Of a stretch of 64,000 nucleotides of DNA, positions 15,128 through 62,455 are shown piece after piece (the stretch's first letter is position 1; each line of letters begins with the position of its first letter). A program made the translations under genes and the position numbers. The stretch covers positions 23,126,001 to 23,190,000 of the forward strand of contig NC_088307.1 of assembly GCF_032854445.1 (NCBI RefSeq), in the 5' to 3' direction. This DNA is from Liolophura sinensis. Its lineage: Eukaryota > Mollusca > Polyplacophora > Chitonida > Chitonidae. The notes below the pieces were generated by a model. It had not been told where the DNA came from. It saw nothing but the letters and a program-made list of their open reading frames with translations, and ran no database searches.

Positions 15128-15447
15128 TTAACCGATGGCTGGGAACCTTGTTGGTAAAGAGCATGCTCTCCCACAAAGACTACGACAACATTTCATCGAC
15201 CTTGGACACTGGGTGTCGGACTGACAGTTGTCTTCGTAACGGATGCAAAACCCAGTGATATATAGCCGCGGACAATACCCTGGTTTGCTTGTAACTGTAC
15301 CCGAGGGGGACATGCACCGTCGGCTGCACCCCCACGAGCAGCATTTCAGGCTACCGGAGCAAGATTGGTCAGAAGTGCATCCGACAACGCACGGGGTCAC
15401 CACGCCGTAAGGGGCTCGTGGACAGGAACCGGGTTTGGTTGGCTGAG
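15128..15447 (-). CDS. WAP gene exon 7, WAP domains 4 and 5
   Basis: 320 nt, acceptor TTGCCTACAG, phase 1, stop TAA at 15130-15128. Domain 4 is KPGSCPR...CTSDQSC...KCCSWGC; domain 5 is KPGYCPR...CQSDTQC...KCCRSLC. No intron separates these two domains. They are more diverged than domains 1-3. Confidence 0.9.
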
Positions 15448-16318
15448 CTGTAGGCAAAAATGAAAAGTGTAAGTTTTGATTGGTCGTTCTGATTACGGGG
15501 TTCATTTTCCGGATTTGCTCAAAGCACATTGACTCTCTCAGCGGAAGCCCCACAGTCGACATTCATTAAAACAAAATCATCGTATATGACAAATATATTT
15601 CAATATGTAATGTTTTTCAAAATAACTACAATGTAAGCAACAAATAAATACATGAACAGTACAATAATGCTGGTGTCCTCTTGGGAAGAATTTAGGAAAA
15701 ACATATATTAAATCAAATTAATAATGTCTTACATCCGTACGTTTATCAGACACCTATATTGTAGTATAATGCGAAGTGCTTATGCTCGGCACATTCATAT
15801 ATACATACATACAAGGTATTCATTGAGGAATCGATGTAGGGTACTTAGGGAACAAATTAACACGCCAAGTTTACAGATTTTACTTGTAACCAAATATATC
15901 GCATCATGTTCCGGTAACCTACACAGAGGGTGCAAGTTCCACACAATGCACTTCTCTAAATTATCGGTGAATAACCCTCAAACCAGAGGAGTAAAAGAAC
16001 AGTACTTCATTCATAAATTTAAATCTGAACTTAACAGACAAAAAATAGGGAGATAATCTCCCCGAGTGGATAATCCCTTGGGCAAGTTCGAACTTTCTTA
16101 TATTTTATGTAATTTATAAATAGGACTGATCACCATGGCTTAAACTACCTGCCTGTATATATAGCTGTCGCAAGATATGTTGAAATTAAAAAAGCTCTGA
16201 AAAATCATCATGATACGGTGAAATTAGTAAGCTAAAGCAACAAGTTCAGTTTGTCATGTTTCTTCTATAGAATATAATTTTACCACGCACAAAGAGCGTT
16301 TTACTGTACACTTTATCC

Positions 16319-18495: not shown

Positions 18496-20235
18496 TTTCT
18501 AAATGATTACTTCCCATTCCCAATTGTATAGCCATATACATATTGTATGGCATAATAGTAACAGCCATAGTTTATACAAGTTGAAGGCGTGTATATTTAC
18601 CCATTTGACAAAGTCCCTTACTTTATTTCTCCTGTCAAATTTGAGGAGTATATCAGATAAAGGTATTTTATATCTTCATCTAATCTCACTTACTAGATTG
18701 TATCGTTACGCAGCGCATGCCACAACCTGAAAAACAGCATTTCTGACTTCCGGGGCACGAGCTATCGGAGGAGCATTGCGCAGGGCATGTCGGGAAATGG
18801 CGTGTTTGGTAACCAGGGCACGTGCCGGGCTTTTCCACGGGGGCTAAAAACCAAAGATCACGGGCCTACATAGTTTCATGAGTGATAACACAGTGACAAA
18901 ATTAAATTTGTGTGCAACAGGGTAAAGTTTGTTAATGCAATATAGCGATGAAATTACATGGCCTTTGATCAAAGGTATAGTTTGCGTATATTGCTAGTCA
19001 ACTCATTTTCGATACTTTCTTCAACAAAATAAATAAAATGGACCTAAGCTACCCTGGACTACGTTTGTAAACACTAAACTCGTCTCCGTTAAAGTCCAAA
19101 GGACATATTCGATGCCTCGCTTCATACTTTTATTCCGTTCGAACAAAAATATTGCAACAGTATCGCTACATAATCGTTACACCATGGATTACCTATCTTC
19201 TATAGTGAAGTATTGCTGAAACAGTAATGATGACGATCCAGCGGCAAAAAGCACTAAGTTGAATAGCAGCAAAAACAGTTATTCTGCGTGCAAGTTGCTT
19301 CCTCACAAGCTAGTACCATAGATATTCCCGCTTATTCCGTTAACGTATGTAAAATTTACGTGTGTGTAAAGAAGTGTGTCAGCCAGTCCATTAATCAATC
19401 AGTCAATCAAATAATTAATCAATCGACCAACACTTCGAGCCTATGCATATAAGCGTATTCATACTTTCACTCAGATGTCATAGTTGCTCAGCTGAACCAG
19501 TCATCAACACTCTCAAAAGGATTACAAAGATTATTTAACCCAGCTGAGCTTAGCCTTGAATTTGCCACAAAAATTGTTTTTAAGTAAGAAACTGTTTATG
19601 GAAAACAATTTGTGGTCGTGTGTTTCGCCTGGGCTCTGCACATTTTATAAATCTTCAAAAATCTCGCTCATTTAGCTCGGTGTTATTTTTCACCTCCTGC
19701 TCCTTGCGACCTACCCGGACGTTCGAAACTATAAATCAACATATACTTACTTGTCTGCACTGACACACAGCGCATGCCACAACCGTAGAAGCAGCACTTC
19801 TGACTTCCGGGACACGAGCTGTCGGACGAGCATCTCGCGGGGCATGACGGGAAATGGCGGGCTTGTATTCCGGTTTGGTACCCAGGACACCTGCCCGGTT
19901 TGTTTACTTGTGGTGCCCGGGCTGTTGACATATACAGAGTAATTAACAATTGTTGACTGATAATGTCATTTATCGCTAAAAGTAAACACGCGTCCAGCCC
20001 CTTGGAATGTCAGCGTAGTACAAAGTTAGACTTTGCTTTGCTTTTGCGAAGTTTGCTTTTAACTTCGTTGATGACGGTGAACGTTTTGGGCTCATTTTTT
20101 GAAATTACTTCAATTTAATTGAACAATCATCAGGAAAATATTAATAAAAATAATCACAACTAATTTTACGTCAGGCAAGCAACCCGCACTCAAAGATATT
20201 CCTTTGGATGTAGCTTTTTGTACTTATATGTGTTG

Positions 20236-29361: not shown

Positions 29362-29502
29362 CTATTTGATTGGGGGTTTTACGCCGTATATACTCTCTCC
29401 AACCGTACGTGGGAAAATCTGCAGCAACCTGCAGATGGTTCGCCGTCGTATTAGTGAAATATTCTTGTGTACAAGGTAAAACACCAATCACATAAATAAA
29501 TA
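29362..29502. repeat. Two SINE-like family A pieces in inverted orientation
   Basis: 29362-29390 is a minus-strand tail (TTTGATTGGGGGTTTTACGC). 29396-29502 is a plus-strand 3' part with an internal deletion, ending ACACCAATCACATAAATAAA. Confidence 0.75.
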
Positions 29503-30246: not shown

Positions 30247-31086
30247 TTATGACCGGAAATAAGTGCCGTCAAACACGTGACACGCAGGACCAATCAAAGA
30301 AATGTTTGTATACGTAGTTTCTCCAGTTTGTGTTGCTTTCACGTATAGTTTACCTAACCGAGCATTAATTGCTTTCGTAAATCCTCGACAGTTTTCGTTG
30401 AATGCATTACTTCGAAAATCAGTTACTAAGGCAACAGCGGTCGCCCCAGTTCCGCACGCCCAAGTTTCACCTTTCACTCCGCTCTCGTACGACCGCATAG
30501 TTACCTCCCCTTCCCTTTCTTTAGCTATCATGATATTGTCCAGTCCTGTCGGATACAATTTAGCATCAGCCTCGATTTTCTCTCCAAAGTTTTGAAGATC
30601 AAATTCTTTTACATCTTCGACGAATTCCACATGACAAAGTGTGCGCGTAAAGATAGAATAACTTTGATCATTGTGTTTCTTGATTTCACTGACGTCACGA
30701 ATGCTGATTTCCACCAATCCTTTCTCGACAAGATGGCGGCCCCAGTGCGCCCCATCCGGTCCGCAAAACGAAAATGTGCCCTCTGGCGGTACGACACCGA
30801 TCTTCCGGGCAAATTCTACCAAACAGCGGCTTCCGTTGCCACAGAATCCGCCCAGTTCTCCAGTAGTGAGATGAGTGACATACTGGAAGGCGCAGGATTT
30901 GTGGTTGCCGTGGCGACAGTTGATCACCTCCAGTATACAGTCAGCTCCAACTCCTGTTTTCGTACAGCAGATATCCCTGTTTAACTGTTGATCGGAAAAA
31001 TCGTGCAGACCCTGTCGGTTATCCACGATGACGACGTGATTTCCCAATCCATGGTACTTAGAAAAGGAGATATTAGATGAAGCCAT
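30247..31086 (-). CDS. dapF: Diaminopimelate epimerase (DapF)-family protein, intact, intronless
   Basis: 279 residues from an ATG start to the stop, one exon. DapF is a PLP-independent epimerase acting with two cysteines; in bacteria and plants it converts LL- to meso-diaminopimelate for lysine and cell wall. Visible family motifs: FSKYHGLGN (residues 8-16), GGFCGNGSRC with catalytic Cys82, HVEFVEDV, DNIMIA, SYESGVKGETWACGTGA with catalytic Cys211, and LIGPACHVFDG near the end. The length fits the family. Several residues that hold diaminopimelate in E. coli are changed (see findings), so another amino acid may be the substrate. The gene lies among SINEs and beside a second copy, so it is nuclear, not contamination. 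Likely old transfer from a bacterium or retention of an ancient gene; the sequence does not decide. Confidence 0.9.
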   Translation of the reverse strand: MASSNISFSKYHGLGNHVVIVDNRQGLHDFSDQQLNRDICCTKTGVGADCILEVINCRHGNHKSCAFQYVTHLTTGELGGFCGNGSRCLVEFARKIGVVPPEGTFSFCGPDGAHWGRHLVEKGLVEISIRDVSEIKKHNDQSYSIFTRTLCHVEFVEDVKEFDLQNFGEKIEADAKLYPTGLDNIMIAKEREGEVTMRSYESGVKGETWACGTGATAVALVTDFRSNAFNENCRGFTKAINARLGKLYVKATQTGETTYTNISLIGPACHVFDGTYFRS

Positions 31087-32330
31087 AGTCGGTCTAACAG
31101 GGACGTCTTTCTCTTACTAGTAATAAACAGTAGAAACCGTTGATATACGGGTATAATATTACCACATGTGAAGACAGATCATAGAATCACCTGATGTCTC
31201 AGTTATACTATCAAACTAGGTCACACATGCACGTAGATTAAATGCATGCACAGGTACTCACCGAGTTACCTACACATGGCCAACAACATACTACAGGTAC
31301 AATACAATTATCTATCTAGGCGTCAAAATATTCGTACATCAGCCGTCAACCTAAATGGGCGTTCCGAGTCAAAAATTGAAATACCAGTTTTCAAAACAAC
31401 ATTCAAGACAAACCACCAAATTACTTACAACATATATAAAGTAAGAAATCAAGACGGATTCTTACAATGAGAAGCAATGAGCAGTTTTTAATGATGTTGG
31501 AAAGCCGCAAGAAATGTTCTAAGTGAATGAGTTAAATCGGTATCCAAATCGGGCACCATGTTAGTTTAAAGTTGTCGATAATCAAAGTATTCATCTCAGC
31601 TGAACTTTGATTGTAACTGTTTATACTTTCTAATGTGGCCATTTTATTCAACACGATAAATATACGTCCGGTATCCCCAGGTTAAGCGGAATTATACACA
31701 ACTATAAAGCACAGTTCCAAAGATCCTGTACACTCCATGCTTTTCTGTTTACATACAACTTTACTGAGCGTAAATTTAAGAAATTTAAAGTGAAAGTGAA
31801 ACTAAAAGTCACAGTTTTTACCGGTGAAATCCGACCCCTTGTCAGTTTACCCCAGCTAGGGTTTTTTTCCGAACCGTTCATATCTATGTTTAAAAAAGAG
31901 CAACGTGCACGCCCCCGTAGCCCCATGGGTTAAGCAGAATTAGATGAAAAGAACAGTGGTGTACGCTGCAATTCATTTGACGTCACTGGTTTAGTATTAG
32001 CCTGCCCAATGTGTTGTTCTCACACTAAACATACAACATTATAAAAAAATTCGTTTGACATTGGTGCTTGATAGAATAAATTGCAATTAACATCACGGCA
32101 TTTTTTTTACCTAAATCTACTTAAGCCGTGGTGCTAAAGGGGGCGTGTAATTTGCTACTATTTGTGCATTTACATGAACAGTTAGAATAAAACCCTGGCT
32201 TAGGTAAATTAATAGGAGGCCATATTTCATCGGTAACCTTTGACCTTTTGTCAGCTTCCACACTGTCGTCCCTGCCCTAGTTTGCTCTCTACCCTGCGCG
32301 TCTTTAATTAGATGTGATATACAGGCCTAT
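31087..32330. other. Intergenic between the two DapF-like copies, repeat text
   Basis: Family F material at about 31800-31925 (plus) and 32150-32290 (minus). A block at 31320-31520 is shared with 6.78-7.0, 28.85-29.0 and 57.5-57.7 kb (ATCAAGACGGATTCTTACAA, GTTTTTAATGATGTTGGAAA). No gene seen. Confidence 0.5.
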
Positions 32331-32426
32331 GGTTTCCACCCACCATAATGCTGGCCGCCATCGTATAAATGAAATATTCTTGAGTACGGCGTAAAACACC
32401 AATAAAATAATAAAATAAATAAATAG
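32331..32426 (+). repeat. SINE-like family A, 3' end
   Basis: GGTTTCCACCCACCATAATG, GGCCGCCATCGTATAAATGA and a degenerate (AAAT)n tail. Confidence 0.88.
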
Positions 32427-33402: not shown

Positions 33403-34239
33403 TTATGACCGGAAGTAGGTACCATCAAACACGTGACGAGTCGGACCAATCAGAGATATGTTTGTATAGTTCGTCTCCCCGGTGCGCTTTGCTTTCACAT
33501 ACAGTTTGCCTAAGTGCACGTTTATCTCTTTCGTGAATTCTGTGCCAGATTCAACAAATTTATTATTCCGTAGATCCGTTGCTAAGGCAACAGCTGTAGT
33601 TCCAGTTCCACATGACCAAGTCTCGCCGTCTATGCTTCTTTCGTAGGAACGCATGGTTATCTCCCCTTCATTATCTTCAACAATCATTACATTTGTACCC
33701 ATAGGATATCTTTTAGTGTCAAACCGAATCTTGTCCCCGAAAGTTTGCAGGTCAATATCTTTAACACTTTGGACGAACTCCACATGAACAGGAGTCCCTG
33801 TGAAAATAAAATAGCTGTTCTCGTTGTAAACCTCGATCTGGTTGACGTCACGGATGCTGATTTCCACCAAACCGTCATGCACAAGATGGCGGCCCCAGTG
33901 TTGCCCATCCGGTCCGCAAAAAGTAAAAGTGCCGTCGTTTGAAATTATGCCGAGTTTTCAGGCGAAATCTGCCAAACACCGGCTCCCATTTCCACAAAAC
34001 CCTCCCACTAAACCTGATGGGAGACGGTTTAGATACTCGAATGCGCATGACTTGTGGTCGCCATGACGACAGTCTATCACCTCCAGCAAGCAGTCTGCAC
34101 CGATACCAGTTTTTGTATGACAAATTTCCCGTATGAACTGAGGGTCGTTGAAGTCATACAACCCTTTTCTGTTGTCAACAAAGACAAAATGATTCCCCAA
34201 ACCGTGGTATTTGGAAAATGGAAAAGACGACGACATCAT
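33403..34239 (-). pseudogene. dapF: DapF-family second copy, one in-frame stop
   Basis: A paralogue of the intact gene 2.3 kb away, same strand. Translation from Met at 34239 or 34236 aligns along the whole length with the intact copy. There is a single TGA at 33960-33958, where the intact copy has an arginine codon (FAR-K). No frameshift or deletion is seen. After the stop the frame stays open to the same C terminus (CHVFDGTYFRS in one, RHVFDGTYFRS in the other). Both catalytic motifs survive (FCGNGSRC before the stop, ETWSCGTG after). Read literally it makes a fragment of about 92-93 residues with only the first catalytic cysteine. It may be a young pseudogene, a null allele or a sequencing error. 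Confidence 0.85.
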
Positions 34240-41503: not shown

Positions 41504-44500
41504 CTGAAATGGGGGCAAAATGAGAATGACCAGAAGGGCAACAAAATATTTCATAAGTGAACCCAATGTTTTATTTATTTATTTATTTGATTGGTGTTTT
41601 ACACCGTACTCGAGAATATTTCACTTATATTACAGCGGCCAGCATTACAGTTTGAGGAAACTGCCCAGGGGAAAACCCATGACCATCCACAGGTTGATGA
41701 CAGACCTTCCCATGTATGGCTGCCCAATGTTTTAGTTATTGGTATCATTGTTGTTTTAAAGGATACATGAAAAGGTATTACAAACATATGGTTTTAAGGA
41801 AACTGAGAAGATACATGTAAGCCCAACAAATTTTGTATGCAGGCATATTTTTAATATTTTTTAATAACTTGTAAGTCCTGTACGTTATCCCATTTTTTTT
41901 TTCAATATTCAGAAATGACTTCGAGATGAAAATAATGGGAACGCACGACCAGTTTAGTGCCCCCTATCCGGGCTCTCACCCAAACAAAGTTGTTTTGACA
42001 ACTATCATAACTGAATTCAAAACTGCAGGCCACATAATTTCTAGACTTAGGTCTTTATACAAACAGGATAAAAACCAAGTATTTCATCTAATCTTTAGCA
42101 CTTGTTGCTTATCACTGGATGACATACTCTTCATGGTGAGAGAGCTGTTCACTTTTTTGGAACATGTAACTGCCACTTACCATACAGAATATGTAACATG
42201 GTAATTCTTCAACTTTATCGAAGGTTTGCAAAATGTTTATTCAAGCATATCCTGATGGCACTGTTCTGTATAGACTGATAAAATTCGACTTTTTGTAAAG
42301 CCCTGAAATTGACCAATCCAACCAATGTAGTTTTGTCTCCAAAATCAAATTAAAAAGTTGAACAAATTGAACTTAAAGTTGCTCTTTCAATTGTGAAAAG
42401 CTTGAGGAATTTAGGTCACTTCATTCAGATCTAAAAACTCAATGCCAAGTAAAAACTGATTTCCGAGTGTCAATCAGTCAAGGGACTTACCCGACAGTTT
42501 TGTGTGTCTCTGTGAGCATGGTGTCTCCTGCACTCCCATTGGACACCGGCATGCTGTGGTAGCGAACGTTGACATTGGCTTTTCTCAACAAGTGTTCTCT
42601 TAGCACTTTGAGGCCTTCGTAAAACATGGCGAGGAAGAAGACAGCCACACAGGCCCCAGCCATTTCTGTTCCACAAACAAACACACTTACGTTGGAATTT
42701 CATTTATATACCATTTTTTTTTCCCAACTTCATCTAAGTGTTGATAACAAGAATTTGCATAGAAAACATCATTAAAATCAGACAATATCTGAAGCAGTTA
42801 TACTGCATGAAAATCTACAGCCAATCAGAATGAAGGAAAATTGTTGAATATGCGAAACTTATGCACAGATTCGGCTGGTCTTTAAACTTGATCTGAGGGA
42901 CCACAAGATGAACCTGAACATGAGTTTTTATCAAAATCGAACATGTTCGTGAAGCAATGATTTCAAGGAAATGACTGTTGTGCCATTCCTGCATTCATGA
43001 CATCTGGATATATAAGCTAGTAATACTCACGTCCCACAGTTGTTACATGCAGCTGTTGAAACAGAATGTATTCCTTGAAGCCGGTGTGAAAGTACATCTG
43101 TAACAAAAAGAAAAACATAGTACATCTGTAAGTAAATAACTTAAGCACATATGTAAGTAAATAACTTACGTACAGATGTAAATAAATAACTTAAATACAT
43201 CTGTAAGTAAATAACTTAAGTACATCTGTAGGTAAATAACTTAAGTACATGTCTAAGTAAATAAACAAAGTACATCTTTAACAAAGAACAAAACAAAAAA
43301 ATACAGTACATCTGTAAGAAAATAACACACATCTGTAAGAAAATCAACTAAGTAAACATCTCACACACAAAAACCCAAAACAAAGTATATTTGTAACAAA
43401 ATGAACAATGTTTGACTAATTGTTGTACTTAAGCCATACTTAAGATCTTTCAATTTAAGTGATGGTAGCCCTTTTTATAGGTGGAGGAACCTATAGGAGG
43501 CCCAGGTGTATGAAACAGTTTGCCGTGATCATCTTGGAACATGTAACATTAGTTAAGTTTGGGTGGCAGATACAAACCTATCATGAGAACAACTTTGTGT
43601 ATCTCAATTTTTGGTACGTGTAGTACACATGCACTGTAACGTCACAGAAGAAAATGATGTGTTCTGCTGCGAGTTTACACTAACAAGCCTGCTCTCAGCT
43701 CTCATTGGCTGAGAGGCTACACACCCCCAGCATAAATAACAGCGTGTCAAAGATGGAGGACGTCATGTAGTTAGCGATTTATTCCAGCTTTGCCGTTTTC
43801 AGGCTTTACGTGTATGGCGAGGAAAACTCGCAAAATTATGCAGCAGGCACCACCAGATAGAAAAAAATGTACTCTTTTCAGCCTATAGCGTCATGTTTTT
43901 AAGTTTTCTTCTCCTTTAACATATTACTGCATACGTATGAGACAAAGATCAACAAACAATTGCACACGTTCATGCCATTCTATTACTTAGAAGAGCATGT
44001 ATATGAATCTGTGGTTGCCCATCACAAGCCTCGCTCCACCTAAAACTGGTTATGGTAAATTAGTATTGTAAAGTAAGACCATAATTTTAATTTTATCGAC
44101 AATGCTCTGGAGATGCTTTAAAAAAAAAAGCATTGATTAACTGAGTCTTTATAGCAAGGCTGTAGTCTGATTCTACACTGCATATTAGGAGATAAAAACA
44201 CACGTTTCATGAATCCCTTAACAAGTCATCCTTTAGGCTAACCCTACCCTCAAAATTCTCTTTTCACCTGACCCAAACACAACGGACAGTAACCAAACCC
44301 GTTTCTGCTTGCACTTACCATCATGCTGTGCTCCATGCTAAGATTGCCATGCCCGCTATGGTCCATAGCAACGCCTCCGCTGCTGCCCCCCATATCCATC
44401 CCGCTCATGGAATGCCCTGAGTGATCACCAGCATTCATCATGTGTGTGGTTGTTTCGTGGCCCGTCTACCAAAACAAAAAAAAAAAGACACATCAGTCTG

Positions 44501-59500: not shown

Positions 59501-62455
59501 GACACAAGGAGACAGGTGGTAATGATTCTGTAAGTGATGTTCCCTTGGCGTTTTAAGGCACCCCTCCCAGCTGTCAGCATAGAAAAGTCCAGATTTTGAT
59601 GGTCAAAGAATGAAGTGCCACTTGCAGTATACATGCAATACATGTCTAACATACAAGTACATGTTACAGCAGTAAATGCTTCACCTGCTACAACTACCCA
59701 AGAAAGCTTCAACTGCCACAACTACCCAAGAAAGTTTCAACTGCCACAACTACCCAAGAAAGCTCCACCTGCAACAACTACCCAAGAAAGCTTCACCTGC
59801 CACAACTACCCAAAAGCTTCACCTGCTTCACCTGCCACAACTACCCAAGAAAGCTTCACCTGCCACAACTGCCCAAGAAAGCTTCAACTGCCACAACTAC
59901 CCAAGAAAGCTCCACCTGCCACAACTACCCAAGAAAGCTTCACCTGCCACAACTACCCAAGAAAGCTTCAACTGCCACAACTACCCAAGAAAGCTTCAAC
60001 TTCTCTTACCATTGTCTTCCTACATGTATAAATGTATAATTCTTTTACTAATTCAACAACAAAGATTTGATTTGTTCATTTTTTTCTTTCTGACATGTTC
60101 AAGGTCACCATTTTAAAATCAAGATCTATTTTTCCCTTCTATTTATTTTTGTACAAATTTTTTTCTGGGCCCCCTTTTTTTTTCATGCCTTCTGTCATGA
60201 AGAACATCTTAACCATGATTGTAATTACAACACTGATACACAAACATCTACTCTAAACCCTCAACAAACTCAACCACAGACACAGTGGATCTTTTACCAG
60301 ATTATATGAATGTTATGTGATCTAGACAGATTATTATTTAACATCTGGTACATGTACATTCTAACTAAACAGCAAATTTCAGTCTACAAAAAGTTTTGTT
60401 TTCGAACTGCTTCTTAATTTACTGCATCTTTACTGATCAGATTTCTTGAGGATTGTAAAGGGTACACCTTTAGGTTTAGCCAGTATTTGAAATCAAGATG
60501 TCTCTGTCTCTTTCTGATACGTTCCCTTCAATATATTCCCTATTTCGCCCATAATAATTTCACCAGATCAAGGTGCCCTGTACACACAGTTTTAAACCTT
60601 GTACCTTCATGTATCTGTGAGTTCTCTATATGCACTCTTAACCACACAGTGCTACGCTCACGTAAACCTCTCTACGTACCAGCCATACCCATGTCAGTTT
60701 TGTATAAGTGATAACCTTGTTATCATCACCACAGAACACAAAGGCACCATCCAGAGCTGTACCGTGACCAGTTTGTCTGTATATCTAAAACACCATACTA
60801 TCAGTCAATGCTTTAAACACCAAACTATAGTAGTGTATACACTATGCAGTGTATATACAACAGAAAAGATTGATATCTCATGAAGGTCCACATGTACAGG
60901 TATTCTGGGGGGAATAAAAAACTTGATCAATGGAAACATATTTTGTATATGTCTCAAGCAAAAAGCAGGATGTTTTTGACATTTTCAGTAGAAATGTTTA
61001 ATGATGTTAAAATATACATGTACAGTGTACAATGAATTTTGAATATCCGCTCAAGGCTTCCATTGCCATGCTTCACTTACCTTTCCACATCAAAAATAAA
61101 AAAAAATAAAAGGAAATTTGAATTCAACTACAAATGTATAGATGTGTGAGGTCAGTGCCTGTGATCACAGGTGCCTGGGAAAAAATAACTGGTAAGGTAA
61201 TATCTCTTCCTTCACCATAATCACCTCATCTGCTTAGGTTTTTATCCAATGCTATATACCGTACATGCATCCTGGACAATTAAAACTTCTGTTGCTGTAC
61301 ACTCTAATTCCTCAACGTCTACCAGTACGAAAAATCAACTATTATTGTGATTTATACCACTTTATCATTTCATTTTGGCGATAAAGATATCTTGGCTGGG
61401 TTGGACAATTTCAGAGCTTCACAAAATGTATAATTTTAGTCAGTCGACACAAAATAATGCCCGCAGAATGTGCTTAAACAATCATCTTGCCAACATGCAA
61501 AACAGTGTAGTTACAGTAGTTTATAAATGTAGCAAATAAATGCGACTTTTCACTTCAGCCTTATGCATTGACGCATCCCATACGAACCTTTATTTCAAAG
61601 TTTTCGAAGTTATTGTAATGTATGAATTTCAAAATACTTGTCTAAGAATGTTCAAGTTTTATAAAGCATGTGCAAAATGCTCTGTGACCAATCGCATTAC
61701 TTCACTGTCATGACTGTTTAAAAAAAAAAAAAGGTGACATAACAGGATTTCCTGATAGGTAATTTATATGTGTAAATTGATGACATTTCTTCATGCAGTT
61801 TTTCTATTGTCCACCTGAGCAGACAGGTATGACTTGCCCACCTGAGCAGACAGGTATGACTTGCCCACCTGAGCAGACAGGTATGACTTGCCCACCTGAG
61901 CAGACCTGTATGACTTGCCCACCTGAGCAGACTGGTATGACTTGCCCACCTGAGCAGACAGGTATGACTTGCCCACCTGAGCAGATGGGTATGACTTGCC
62001 ATTGAAAGACACTTTACATCGCATAATTCATGTAAAACTCCTGACATGTTTATGTTTATCATATATTCATTATTTCATTAGCTACTGTGCGTCTGAATAA
62101 TCTGGCACAACCGAGTTTTAAACAACATTTATATCAATTAATTCTGACAAAACTGATACATATATAAATAATACATACTATACTGCACTGTGAAGTTCTC
62201 GAACATTTTGATACAAGCATCATACCAAATAATTCAGGGAATAGGCCTGCTGTTAATGTGAATGAAATAAATAATTCTTTTTTAAAGGAGAGAAATACAA
62301 ACCGATCTTCCTTACCTAGTATTTGACAACAACATAATCAATTCTCATTGTTCACAAATGGCTGGAATAAACCTGGTAATCAAATATGCAAATTTTTTAA
62401 AACTAATTTAAAAAAAGGTACTTACATGGCCTCCATGGTGGACATGACCTGACAT
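41302..62455 (-). CDS. SLC31A1: High-affinity copper transporter CTR1, complete, 5 coding exons
   Basis: CTR1 trimers pass Cu(I) across the plasma membrane. Exons: 62455-62426, 44465-44319, 43097-43031, 42665-42491, 41503-41302; 621 nt, 206 residues plus TAG. The N terminus is rich in Met and His ([10 protein letters not shown], then [11 protein letters not shown] and NLSMEHSMM) like the copper-catching ectodomain of the family. TM1 spans about residues 83-103 ([20 protein letters not shown]). TM2 carries the selectivity motif M166-xxx-M170 ([12 protein letters not shown]). TM3 carries G183-xxx-G187 (ALGAGAGYF). The C terminus ends in His-Cys-His, as in human CTR1 (190 residues). All phases match (0, 0, 1, 2). 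Intron 1 is about 18 kb. A non-coding 5' exon is possible: the minus strand has an acceptor-like CTCTTCCACAG ending near 62687. Confidence 0.96.
41570..41719 (-). repeat. SINE-like family A, head truncated, in CTR1 intron 4
   Basis: (TTTA)n tail, TTGATTGGTGTTTTACACCG, to CAGACCTTCCCATGTATGGC. Its tail lies only about 65 bp upstream of exon 5. Confidence 0.88.
42491..42665 (-). CDS. SLC31A1: CTR1 exon 4, TM1 and loop
   Basis: 175 nt, phase 1 to 2, acceptor GTGGAACAG, donor GTAAGT. It encodes [20 protein letters not shown], then [14 protein letters not shown] and TETHKTVG, nearly as in human. Confidence 0.97.
43031..43097 (-). CDS. SLC31A1: CTR1 exon 3, pre-TM1 segment
   Basis: 67 nt, phase 0 to 1, acceptor TTTGTTACAG, donor GTGAGT. 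It encodes [20 protein letters not shown], then VG; human CTR1 has FYFGFKNVELLFSG here. Its acceptor forms the first unit of a tandem array. Confidence 0.93.
43098..43405. repeat. 25-bp minisatellite of splice-acceptor copies in CTR1 intron 2
   Basis: Plus-strand unit ACATCTGTAAGTAAATAACT, then TAAGT, about ten degenerate copies. The first copy overlaps the exon 3 boundary at 43097/43098. Read in gene sense most units are TTATTTACTTACAG then ATGTACTT, the same as the true acceptor and first exon bases. Confidence 0.9.
43455..43560. repeat. SINE-like family B fragment
   Basis: GTGGAGGAACCTATAGGAGG then CCCAGGTGTATGAAACAGTT, a diverged copy. Confidence 0.45.
44319..44465 (-). CDS. SLC31A1: CTR1 exon 2, Met/His-rich ectodomain
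   Basis: 147 nt, phase 0 to 0, acceptor TTTTGGTAG after a T-rich tract, donor GTAAGT. It encodes [17 protein letters not shown] and ends SMEHSMM. Confidence 0.93.
44825..45020. repeat. SINE-like family B
   Basis: GAGTTTTTCACTCATATGAT, TTAAACCACTAACATTTGGC, TAGTGACAAACTTCATG and AGAAAAAGTGGTCTTCACAG. Confidence 0.6.
45236..45459 (+). repeat. SINE-like family A, nearly full length
   Basis: Head GGGGCCTCCATGGCTCAGTT with box A, a deletion that removes the box B region, then core and (AAAT)n tail. Imperfect flanking duplication (AAACGTAATTTC and AAAAGTAATTTC). Confidence 0.92.
46334..46480 (-). repeat. SINE-like family A fragment
   Basis: AAAGAATATTTCACTTATAT, GGCAGAGCCCGGGTAAAACC and GAAGCCAGCA, head missing. 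Confidence 0.85.
48930..49184 (-). repeat. SINE-like family A, full length, diverged
   Basis: From TTATTTATTTATATGATTGA to GCCACAGAGGCCC, with GACTTGAACTCACAGCAATC in between. Confidence 0.88.
49243..49344 (+). repeat. SINE-like family A, 3' end
   Basis: CCCCCGGACTCTGCCCGGTT, GGCCGCCGTCGCATAAGTGA and an A-rich end. Confidence 0.88.
49345..51728. other. CTR1 intron 1, unique sequence
   Basis: No repeat or exon recognised. AT-rich, with scattered short open frames on both strands (for example 51007-51213 and 51153-51419) that lack splice or family support. Confidence 0.4.
51729..51993 (-). repeat. SINE-like family A, full length, diverged
   Basis: TTTATTTACTTATTTATTTA tail, GTGGGAGGAAATCAGGGCAG core, GCCACGGAGGCC head. 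Confidence 0.9.
52047..52244 (-). repeat. SINE-like family A, well preserved, head truncated
   Basis: TTGATTGGTGTTTTACGCCA to GACTTGAACTCACAGCG. It contains the intact core GGGCAGAGCCCGGGGGAAAC and CACGTACGGCCGGCGAGG, only 54 bp from the previous copy and in the same orientation. Confidence 0.92.
53240..53388 (+). repeat. SINE-like family A, 5'-truncated
   Basis: GAGAAGGTCTGGCAGCAACC to the (AAAT)n tail, with high similarity to the full-length copy. Confidence 0.92.
53389..56070. other. CTR1 intron 1, unique sequence
   Basis: No supported feature. The open frame at 55179-55463 has a hydrophobic start but no recognisable family or splice context. Confidence 0.4.
56073..57174. repeat. 28-bp minisatellite, about 39 copies
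   Basis: Unit ATAATCACCCAATCCAGCTG then TACCACTG. Units at the left (before about 56.46 kb) are heterogeneous (TACTGTTG, TATCCTGTTG). Units at the right are nearly identical, so recent amplification was at the right side. No spacer structure. Confidence 0.97.
57213..57480 (+). mobile_element. SINE-like family A, full-length reference copy with target site duplication
   Basis: Head GGGGCCTCCGTGGCTCAG with box A TGGCTCAGTCGG (57223-57234) and box B GAGTTCAAGACC (57291-57302), so it is tRNA-derived. The conserved core and 3' domain run to an A-rich tail. A perfect 12-bp duplication ATAAAGACAGTC flanks it (57201-57212 and 57481-57492). At 268 bp it is the best copy in the window and probably the youngest. 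The conserved 3' part resembles the deeply conserved SINE domains described in molluscs (Nin-DC or Meta type); I cannot tell which. Confidence 0.95.
57520..57720. repeat. Dispersed repeat shared with 6.8-7.0 and 31.3-31.5 kb
   Basis: ATAGGACGGAATCATACAAA and GAGAAGCAGTCAACAGTTTT, then GATGTTGGAAAGATGCAAG. The same order occurs at 6920-6980 and 31450-31510. Confidence 0.7.
57721..59675. other. CTR1 intron 1, unique sequence
   Basis: Nothing recognised apart from short A/T runs. Confidence 0.4.
59680..60003. repeat. 28-bp minisatellite, about 11 copies
   Basis: Unit CTTCACCTGCCACAACTACC then CAAGAAAG, with one shortened unit near 59.81 kb. Because 28 is not a multiple of three, the array is read through all frames; the 138- and 146-residue open frames here are artefacts. 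Confidence 0.96.
61811..62005. repeat. 28-bp minisatellite, about 7 copies
   Basis: Unit CACCTGAGCAGACAGGTATG then ACTTGCCC. It lies 420-615 bp downstream of CTR1 coding exon 1, in intron 1. Each unit has an E-box (CACCTG). Confidence 0.96.
62426..62455 (-). CDS. SLC31A1: CTR1 exon 1 (coding part)
   Basis: ATG at 62455, [10 protein letters not shown], then donor GTAAGT at phase 0. Ten residues, four of them histidine. Confidence 0.85.

Follow-up and report, generated by a model that had tools for sequence, protein, structure and literature searches.

Does an intact gene of the diaminopimelate (DAP) epimerase family in an animal genome still serve DAP chemistry, or has its product taken on another task? 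This question is raised by a stretch of 64,000 nucleotides of the chiton Liolophura sinensis (NC_088307.1, positions 23,126,001 to 23,190,000), in the following called the window, in which an intronless gene of the DapF family, copy A, had been recognized. DAP chemistry is generally regarded as absent from animals, and the initial annotation had proposed on this premise that the gene now serves another purpose. The reading which we favour, with moderate confidence, is that copy A encodes a racemase or epimerase independent of pyridoxal phosphate (PLP), acting on a free amino acid other than DAP and descending from an anciently acquired dapF family of the Bacteroidota type. Catalytic activity, substrate and expression of copy A as well as the lysine route discussed below are what we infer from the analyses presented here.

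Copy A and its substrate pocket

The frame of copy A is read on the minus strand from 31086 to 30247 (coordinates of all features are collected in the table below). With 279 codons it is the longest frame of the window starting with ATG, GTG or TTG, the runner-up having 159 codons, and the opposite strand across the same positions is interrupted by stops. The translation contains the motifs FCGNGSRC, ETWACGTG and GPACHVFDG, just as they had been read initially. Copy A scores 64.9 bits against the Pfam family PF01678 (DAP_epimerase; gathering cut-off 34.7) and 105 bits against the DapF equivalog profile TIGR00652, which is under the cut-off of 114.65. A sequence search of the PDB returned 17 distinct sequences at E <= 0.001, the top match being O-ureidoserine racemase (9.9e-14) and the best DapF following with 2.4e-13. 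The AlphaFold2 model (mean predicted local distance difference test score 93.2) has the DapF fold, and in the structure comparison the best match was DcsC (PDB 7vdy), level with DapF, at an identity of 22-25%. Since the entire fold is contained within a single open frame no coding intron is required; an intron may be present in the 5' untranslated part. Both catalytic cysteines, Cys82 in the CGNG motif and Cys211 in the CG(T/S)G motif, are found in copy A. Judged by domain, fold and cysteines, copy A belongs to the DapF-like cofactor-independent racemases, with a predicted activity of this kind.

For the analysis of the substrate pocket the residues of DapF are numbered as in the Anabaena enzyme and conservation was counted over 48 bacterial rows; 48 of 51 loci were used for trees and residue counts (L004, L005 and L034 were left out), and L052 was not included. 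Asn66 and Arg216, which bind the distal end of DAP, are present in 48 of the 48 bacterial rows, and copy A has leucine (Leu73) and serine (Ser202) at these places. Both cysteines, the CGNG motif, Asn13 and Glu215 are retained. As the residues at the far end are changed and the racemase machinery is kept, copy A is predicted to act on another amino acid, and a purpose other than DAP epimerization, as proposed initially, appears likely from the alignments. In such a reaction Cys82 and Cys211 would remove the alpha-proton from one face and return one on the other, and the substrate would be a free amino acid without the second carboxylate of DAP.

The gene family, its age and a possible lysine route

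The initial annotation described a single DapF-family gene. Copy A is indeed real, but its tandem sister, copy B, and nine further copies had been overlooked. We searched the host assembly (609,464,459 bases in 632 contigs; the window lies on contig C13, which has 30 Mb) and found DapF-family genes at 11 places (20 candidates scored); a second search, for which the profile PF01678 was used, yielded 21 domain matches, all of them in those 11 genes (22 candidates scored). These match counts are lower bounds. The family consists of the A/B pair, eight genes on contig C12 and the gene L062 on C13, and is thus distributed over two chromosome-size contigs. The matches of L062 and of the C12 genes sit in stop-free frames of 253-316 residues, and both catalytic cysteines are retained in ten of the eleven genes. 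Five of the C12 copies (L056-L060) have a protein identity of 95-99% and can be aligned together with their flanks over 3.5-3.8 kb at 95.9-98.6%; the shared flanks identify them as recent segmental copies. In the C12 copy L063 an in-frame deletion has removed 30 residues, the first catalytic cysteine among them, and three further residues are missing downstream. Older C12 pairs have ratios of nonsynonymous to synonymous substitutions (dN/dS) of 0.29-0.34; for the five recent copies the ratios range from 0.2 to 1.9, with changes too few for a judgement.

The pockets of these genes differ. L062 retains Asn66, Asp68, His166, Asn197, Glu215 and Arg216, has Ser164 as do most Bacteroidota rows, and reaches 155.9 bits against TIGR00652, above the cut-off; from its sequence it looks like a DAP epimerase. 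In all eight C12 copies a cysteine stands in place of the DAP-binding arginine. These observations would fit a single long-ago transfer of a Bacteroidota-type dapF into the host lineage, after which L062 would have stayed DAP-epimerase-like, perhaps working with LysA to convert bacterial DAP to lysine. The duplicates, that is A, B and the C12 cluster, would have retained the cofactor-free proton transfer by two cysteines and the binding of the alpha-amino and alpha-carboxyl groups and would have altered the residues gripping the far end of DAP. An insert of two residues in the loop of Asn66, seen in a six-row alignment and also in the phmmer comparison with 7vdy, would have given copy B an asparagine at this place; we dropped it, because it is absent in four MAFFT modes with the large set and the C12 copies cross the loop ungapped.

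A homologue of LysA (diaminopimelate decarboxylase) is encoded on contig C6 in at least six exon frames. The lysA profile TIGR01048 ranked first in all six, with 97.5, 43.5, 22.2, 32.5, 67.1 and 33.9 bits, the value of 22.2 being barely above that of speA (21.2); as separate exon pieces they each remain below the whole-protein equivalog cut-off of 297.9, which is unreachable for pieces. A weak seventh match (29.6 bits) lies on C7. For two of the C6 frames the best PDB matches are the DAP decarboxylases of Arabidopsis, which are plastid enzymes, with 2e-34 for the longest frame and 3e-17 for the other. Of the early steps of the pathway dapA was checked, and its sole match in the host genome, L074, has 166 bits and is under the cut-off of 206.15; this frame without introns looks like mitochondrial HOGA1, which we take it to be.

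With L062 and the LysA homologue present, the assumption that the host has no DAP chemistry is unsafe. If the early steps are lacking, a canonical DapF together with LysA would be in keeping with the recovery of lysine from bacterial DAP. Copy A itself could still be a DAP epimerase working alongside L062 and the LysA homologue on DAP from food or symbionts, and the complete set of DAP residues checked in L062, the match of the longest LysA frame to the plant decarboxylase and the bacterial DapF and LysA of whiteflies, which serve lysine synthesis in the passages of that report dealing with them (PMC8659303), argue in this direction; the carboxylate grip of copy A is, however, altered (Arg216 to serine, Asn66 to leucine) and its TIGR00652 score lies below the cut-off whereas that of L062 lies above it, so that we regard this as quite unlikely. 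A wider reading, possible though on balance doubtful, is that the host kept the last two bacterial lysine steps with L062 and the spliced C6 gene and makes lysine, an essential amino acid, from bacterial DAP, and that the window pair and the C12 genes form a new clade of PLP-independent racemases making a D-amino acid of the host's own. The LysA homologue alongside raises the question whether some animals obtain lysine from the DAP of bacterial cell walls.

Copies A and B are 67% identical and have the same orientation, and B is complete apart from one in-frame TGA. With A and B as queries, a tblastn search of the window revealed no third copy, the remaining matches having E > 6. The comparison of A with B gives a dN of 0.21-0.22 and a dS of 1.3-2.4 (four methods), and the LWL85 method gives a dN/dS of 0.155 with a 2.5-97.5% range of 0.10-0.22 (282 of 300 resamples yielded a value). 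When copy A was evolved neutrally in simulations (300 per setting), 3% of the frames still lacked stops at 0.1 changes per site; at 0.2, 0.4 and 0.65 every frame had acquired a stop. The low ratio together with the frame loss in the simulations shows that the pair was selected during much of the time after the split. The pair is thus old and was formerly under purifying selection, which agrees with the proposal that the gene had been kept; the stop of copy B probably arose late.

Bacterial contamination or a chimeric assembly would be suggested by the bacterial nature of the DapF family and by nothing else. Against either speaks that the family has eleven diverged members spread over two chromosome-size contigs, that copy A lies between dispersed repeats of the host, that dS for the A/B pair exceeds 1, and that in one genome scan no prokaryotic sequence was more than 34% identical to copy A. 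As the pair is old and has been under selection we therefore reject contamination, which retains hardly any probability; a tree position inside a recent contaminant, with no reads joining the gene to its flanks, had been named initially as one finding which would overturn the proposal.

Within both copies of the pair there is a loop of the form C-R-H-G-N/D-H-K-S-C (minus strand; 30892-30918 in A, 34045-34071 in B). Five of its residues correspond to a gap in all 31 Bacteroidota-type rows, and the C12 copies bear a related loop (C-x5-H... C). The two cysteines and two histidines of the A/B loop might form a metal site or a disulphide. PolyA-type hexamers within 600 bases past the stops numbered three for A and two for B with 1.3 expected, which is no evidence for such signals.

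Origin of the family and points against our reading

In one scan of genome contigs we found 46 loci, of which 30 (L006-L034 and L043) are titled Bacteroidota, with identities of 29-34%. In a tree of 53 rows having A and B as sole host genes the pair falls inside a Bacteroidota branch of 33 rows (support 100/99). A second tree comprised 58 rows with ten host genes; L063, the copy with the deletion, was left out, as were L045, L046 and L050, which have long branches. Here the host genes form one clade (96/89) in which L062 branches first and the window pair and the C12 genes group together (100/98), and the host genes and 31 Bacteroidota-type rows share a 100/99 branch apart from the cyanobacteria and the plant. 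L062 and the DapF of a Flavobacteriales member (L022) are 43% identical. These trees support the bacterial origin suggested initially. An origin of the family with Bacteroidota-type DapF is well supported by them, and a single acquisition followed by duplication is most likely, as the simplest reading; its direction and its route, direct or through another eukaryote, we infer.

The family could also be an old eukaryotic gene or have arrived via another eukaryote instead of by transfer from Bacteroidota. A dapF transfer into a choanoflagellate has been published, according to the part of the article that treats it (PMC7971027), eukaryotes are sparsely sampled in our trees (one plant), and the best PDB match of the LysA homologue is a plant enzyme. 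The 100/99 branch, which joins all host genes with Bacteroidota apart from cyanobacteria and the plant, makes this explanation unlikely in our view.

A viral carrier was considered and dropped: a search of the viral contig collection with copy A found no relative, and searches with the alignments A1 and A2 gave one locus each, with 25% and 38% identity (the latter over a stretch of 47 residues). Three phage-record matches are unannotated contigs from human faeces, and one of them, L002, which was used in the trees, groups with Bacteroidota. The DapF of a Bacteroidetes metagenome-assembled genome (Dive96_bin2.219; L006 2995-3786) shares FCGNGSRCL with the window genes and groups elsewhere in the trees.

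Several observations have to be set against the favoured reading of copy A as a racemase of Bacteroidota descent. A grouping of the Bacteroidota rows without A and B is not rejected (approximately unbiased test, p 0.185), so that host genes nested in the Bacteroidota and host genes sister to them would both fit; the second tree has 17 rows outside the Bacteroidota-plus-animal branch with one non-animal eukaryote among them, and its bootstrap had not settled. In the pocket, His166 (47 of 48 bacterial rows) is lost in ten of the eleven host genes, which could weaken catalysis. Asn164 is a poor marker, the bacterial rows having serine in 26, asparagine in 8, valine in 7, threonine in 6 and alanine in 1 of 48, and the place of Asn197 in copy A is occupied by aspartate in the large alignments and by a shifted asparagine in the small one. 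Three C12 copies without Arg216 exceed the DapF equivalog cut-off (119-133 bits), so that score and pocket are not simply coupled. The structural tie of the copy A model with DcsC and DapF is no proof of function. Moreover, the interrupted copy B retains Arg216 and Asn197 and is closer to the bacteria (up to 39%), and copy A evolves faster, lone differences from 31 Bacteroidota-type rows amounting to a mean of 21.3 sites for A and 11.7 for B. Some relaxation of selection on copy A is possible.

Copy A might even be decaying, in which case selection would have maintained the ancestor and B, and A would now be relaxed or only marginally active. Among the 91 columns with a conservation of 80% or more over the 31 rows, 11 are kept by B alone and 3 by A alone, and members of the family do decay, as the stop in B and the deletion in L063 illustrate. 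However, the frame of copy A is intact despite a dS above 1, dN over the whole pair is 0.21, and both cysteines, CGNG, Asn13 and Glu215 are in place, which leaves decay a rather small probability.

Neighbourhood of copy A and comparison with known systems

Copy A had been described as flanked by animal SINEs, and a repeat of about 90 bases, a putative SINE that is dispersed over the window with 23 matches, itself included, does lie on either side of it. Between 29 and 35 kb the GC content per kb is 0.38-0.43, inside the range of the window (0.29-0.48). Scans of the window for transfer RNAs and Rfam families gave no matches. A His/Met-rich frame at 44253-44465, which has no Pfam match, may be the first exon of the Ctr transporter gene. 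At 59600-60116 and 61718-62074 short repeated units, spotted by eye in the frame lists, keep frames open.

Table. Positions of copy A, its relatives and neighbouring features (window positions unless a contig is named)
Feature	Position	Strand	Basis
Copy A, DapF-family gene of 279 codons, complete in a single open frame	30247..31086	minus	frame analysis, profile searches, predicted fold
Codon of Cys82, first catalytic cysteine (FCGNGSRC)	30841..30843	minus	motif, alignments
Codon of Cys211, second catalytic cysteine (ETWACGTG)	30454..30456	minus	motif, alignments
Codon of Leu73, place of DapF Asn66	30868..30870	minus	alignment
Codon of Ser202, place of DapF Arg216	30481..30483	minus	alignment
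Copy B, tandem paralogue of A, 278-residue frame broken by one TGA	33403..34239	minus	sequence comparison
TGA in frame at codon 94 of copy B	33958..33960	minus	translation
~90-base repeat beside copy A	29441-29500		sequence match
~90-base repeat between A and B	32327-32417		sequence match
WAP four-disulphide-core open frame	15131-15562	minus	Pfam, 81.4 bits
WAP four-disulphide-core open frame	19686-20009	minus	Pfam, 45.4 bits
Ctr-type copper transporter exon	42490-42699	minus	Pfam, 33.2 bits
L062, DapF-family gene	C13:720249-721064		genome search
Eight C12 genes (L055-L061, L063)	C12:20911377-21238212 (~330 kb)		genome search
LysA (diaminopimelate decarboxylase) homologue	C6, 34558746-34564588 (L075 2223-8326)	minus	at least six exon frames
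dapA/aldolase-family single open frame, 338 residues (L074 1477-2490)	C6:30784252-30785091	minus	profile match

Transferred dapF genes have been reported from other animals. The whitefly gene is bacterial, intronless and single-copy and lysA was acquired as well; the donors are given as Enterobacteriales in whiteflies and Rickettsiales in the mealybug, the catalytic sites are reported to be conserved, and no expansion to eleven genes is described in the passages concerned (PMC8659303). An anthozoan diaminopimelate decarboxylase, a transfer candidate, is a LysA-type animal gene like the one on C6; its origin is ascribed to chlorophyll c-containing algae, and no DapF is mentioned alongside in that section of the paper (PMC4878875). 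The main text of a survey on transferred D-amino acid enzymes of eukaryotes contains neither diaminopimelate nor dapF (PMC5169069), the terms epimerase, racemase and dap are absent from the text of a compendium of transfers into metazoans published in 2026 (PMC13342648), and among the matches listed in the literature searched, which holds few subscription journals, there was no account of DapF in molluscs or lophotrochozoans. As far as this literature goes, a donor of the Bacteroidota type, the expansion to eleven genes and a canonical copy beside duplicates with altered pockets are new. If the pocket changes mean a new substrate, a series from a donor-like enzyme to a new enzyme is preserved within one genome.

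Copy A shares the fold, the cysteine motifs and the residues at the alpha-amino-acid end with bacterial and plant DapF (PF01678, TIGR00652); unlike in these enzymes its far-end DAP residues are changed, whereas L062 retains them. DcsC, the O-ureidoserine racemase, also has no arginine after the conserved glutamate (HEYG) in the alignment; it belongs to a Streptomyces antibiotic pathway. A similar pocket pattern is known from PddB, a 2,4-diaminobutyrate racemase which is actinobacterial, unlike the host's copy A: according to the published description, on which the likeness rests, this relative of DapF keeps the proximal residues and Glu208 while the distal Asn/Arg set is replaced (PMC8225329), much as in copy A and the C12 copies.
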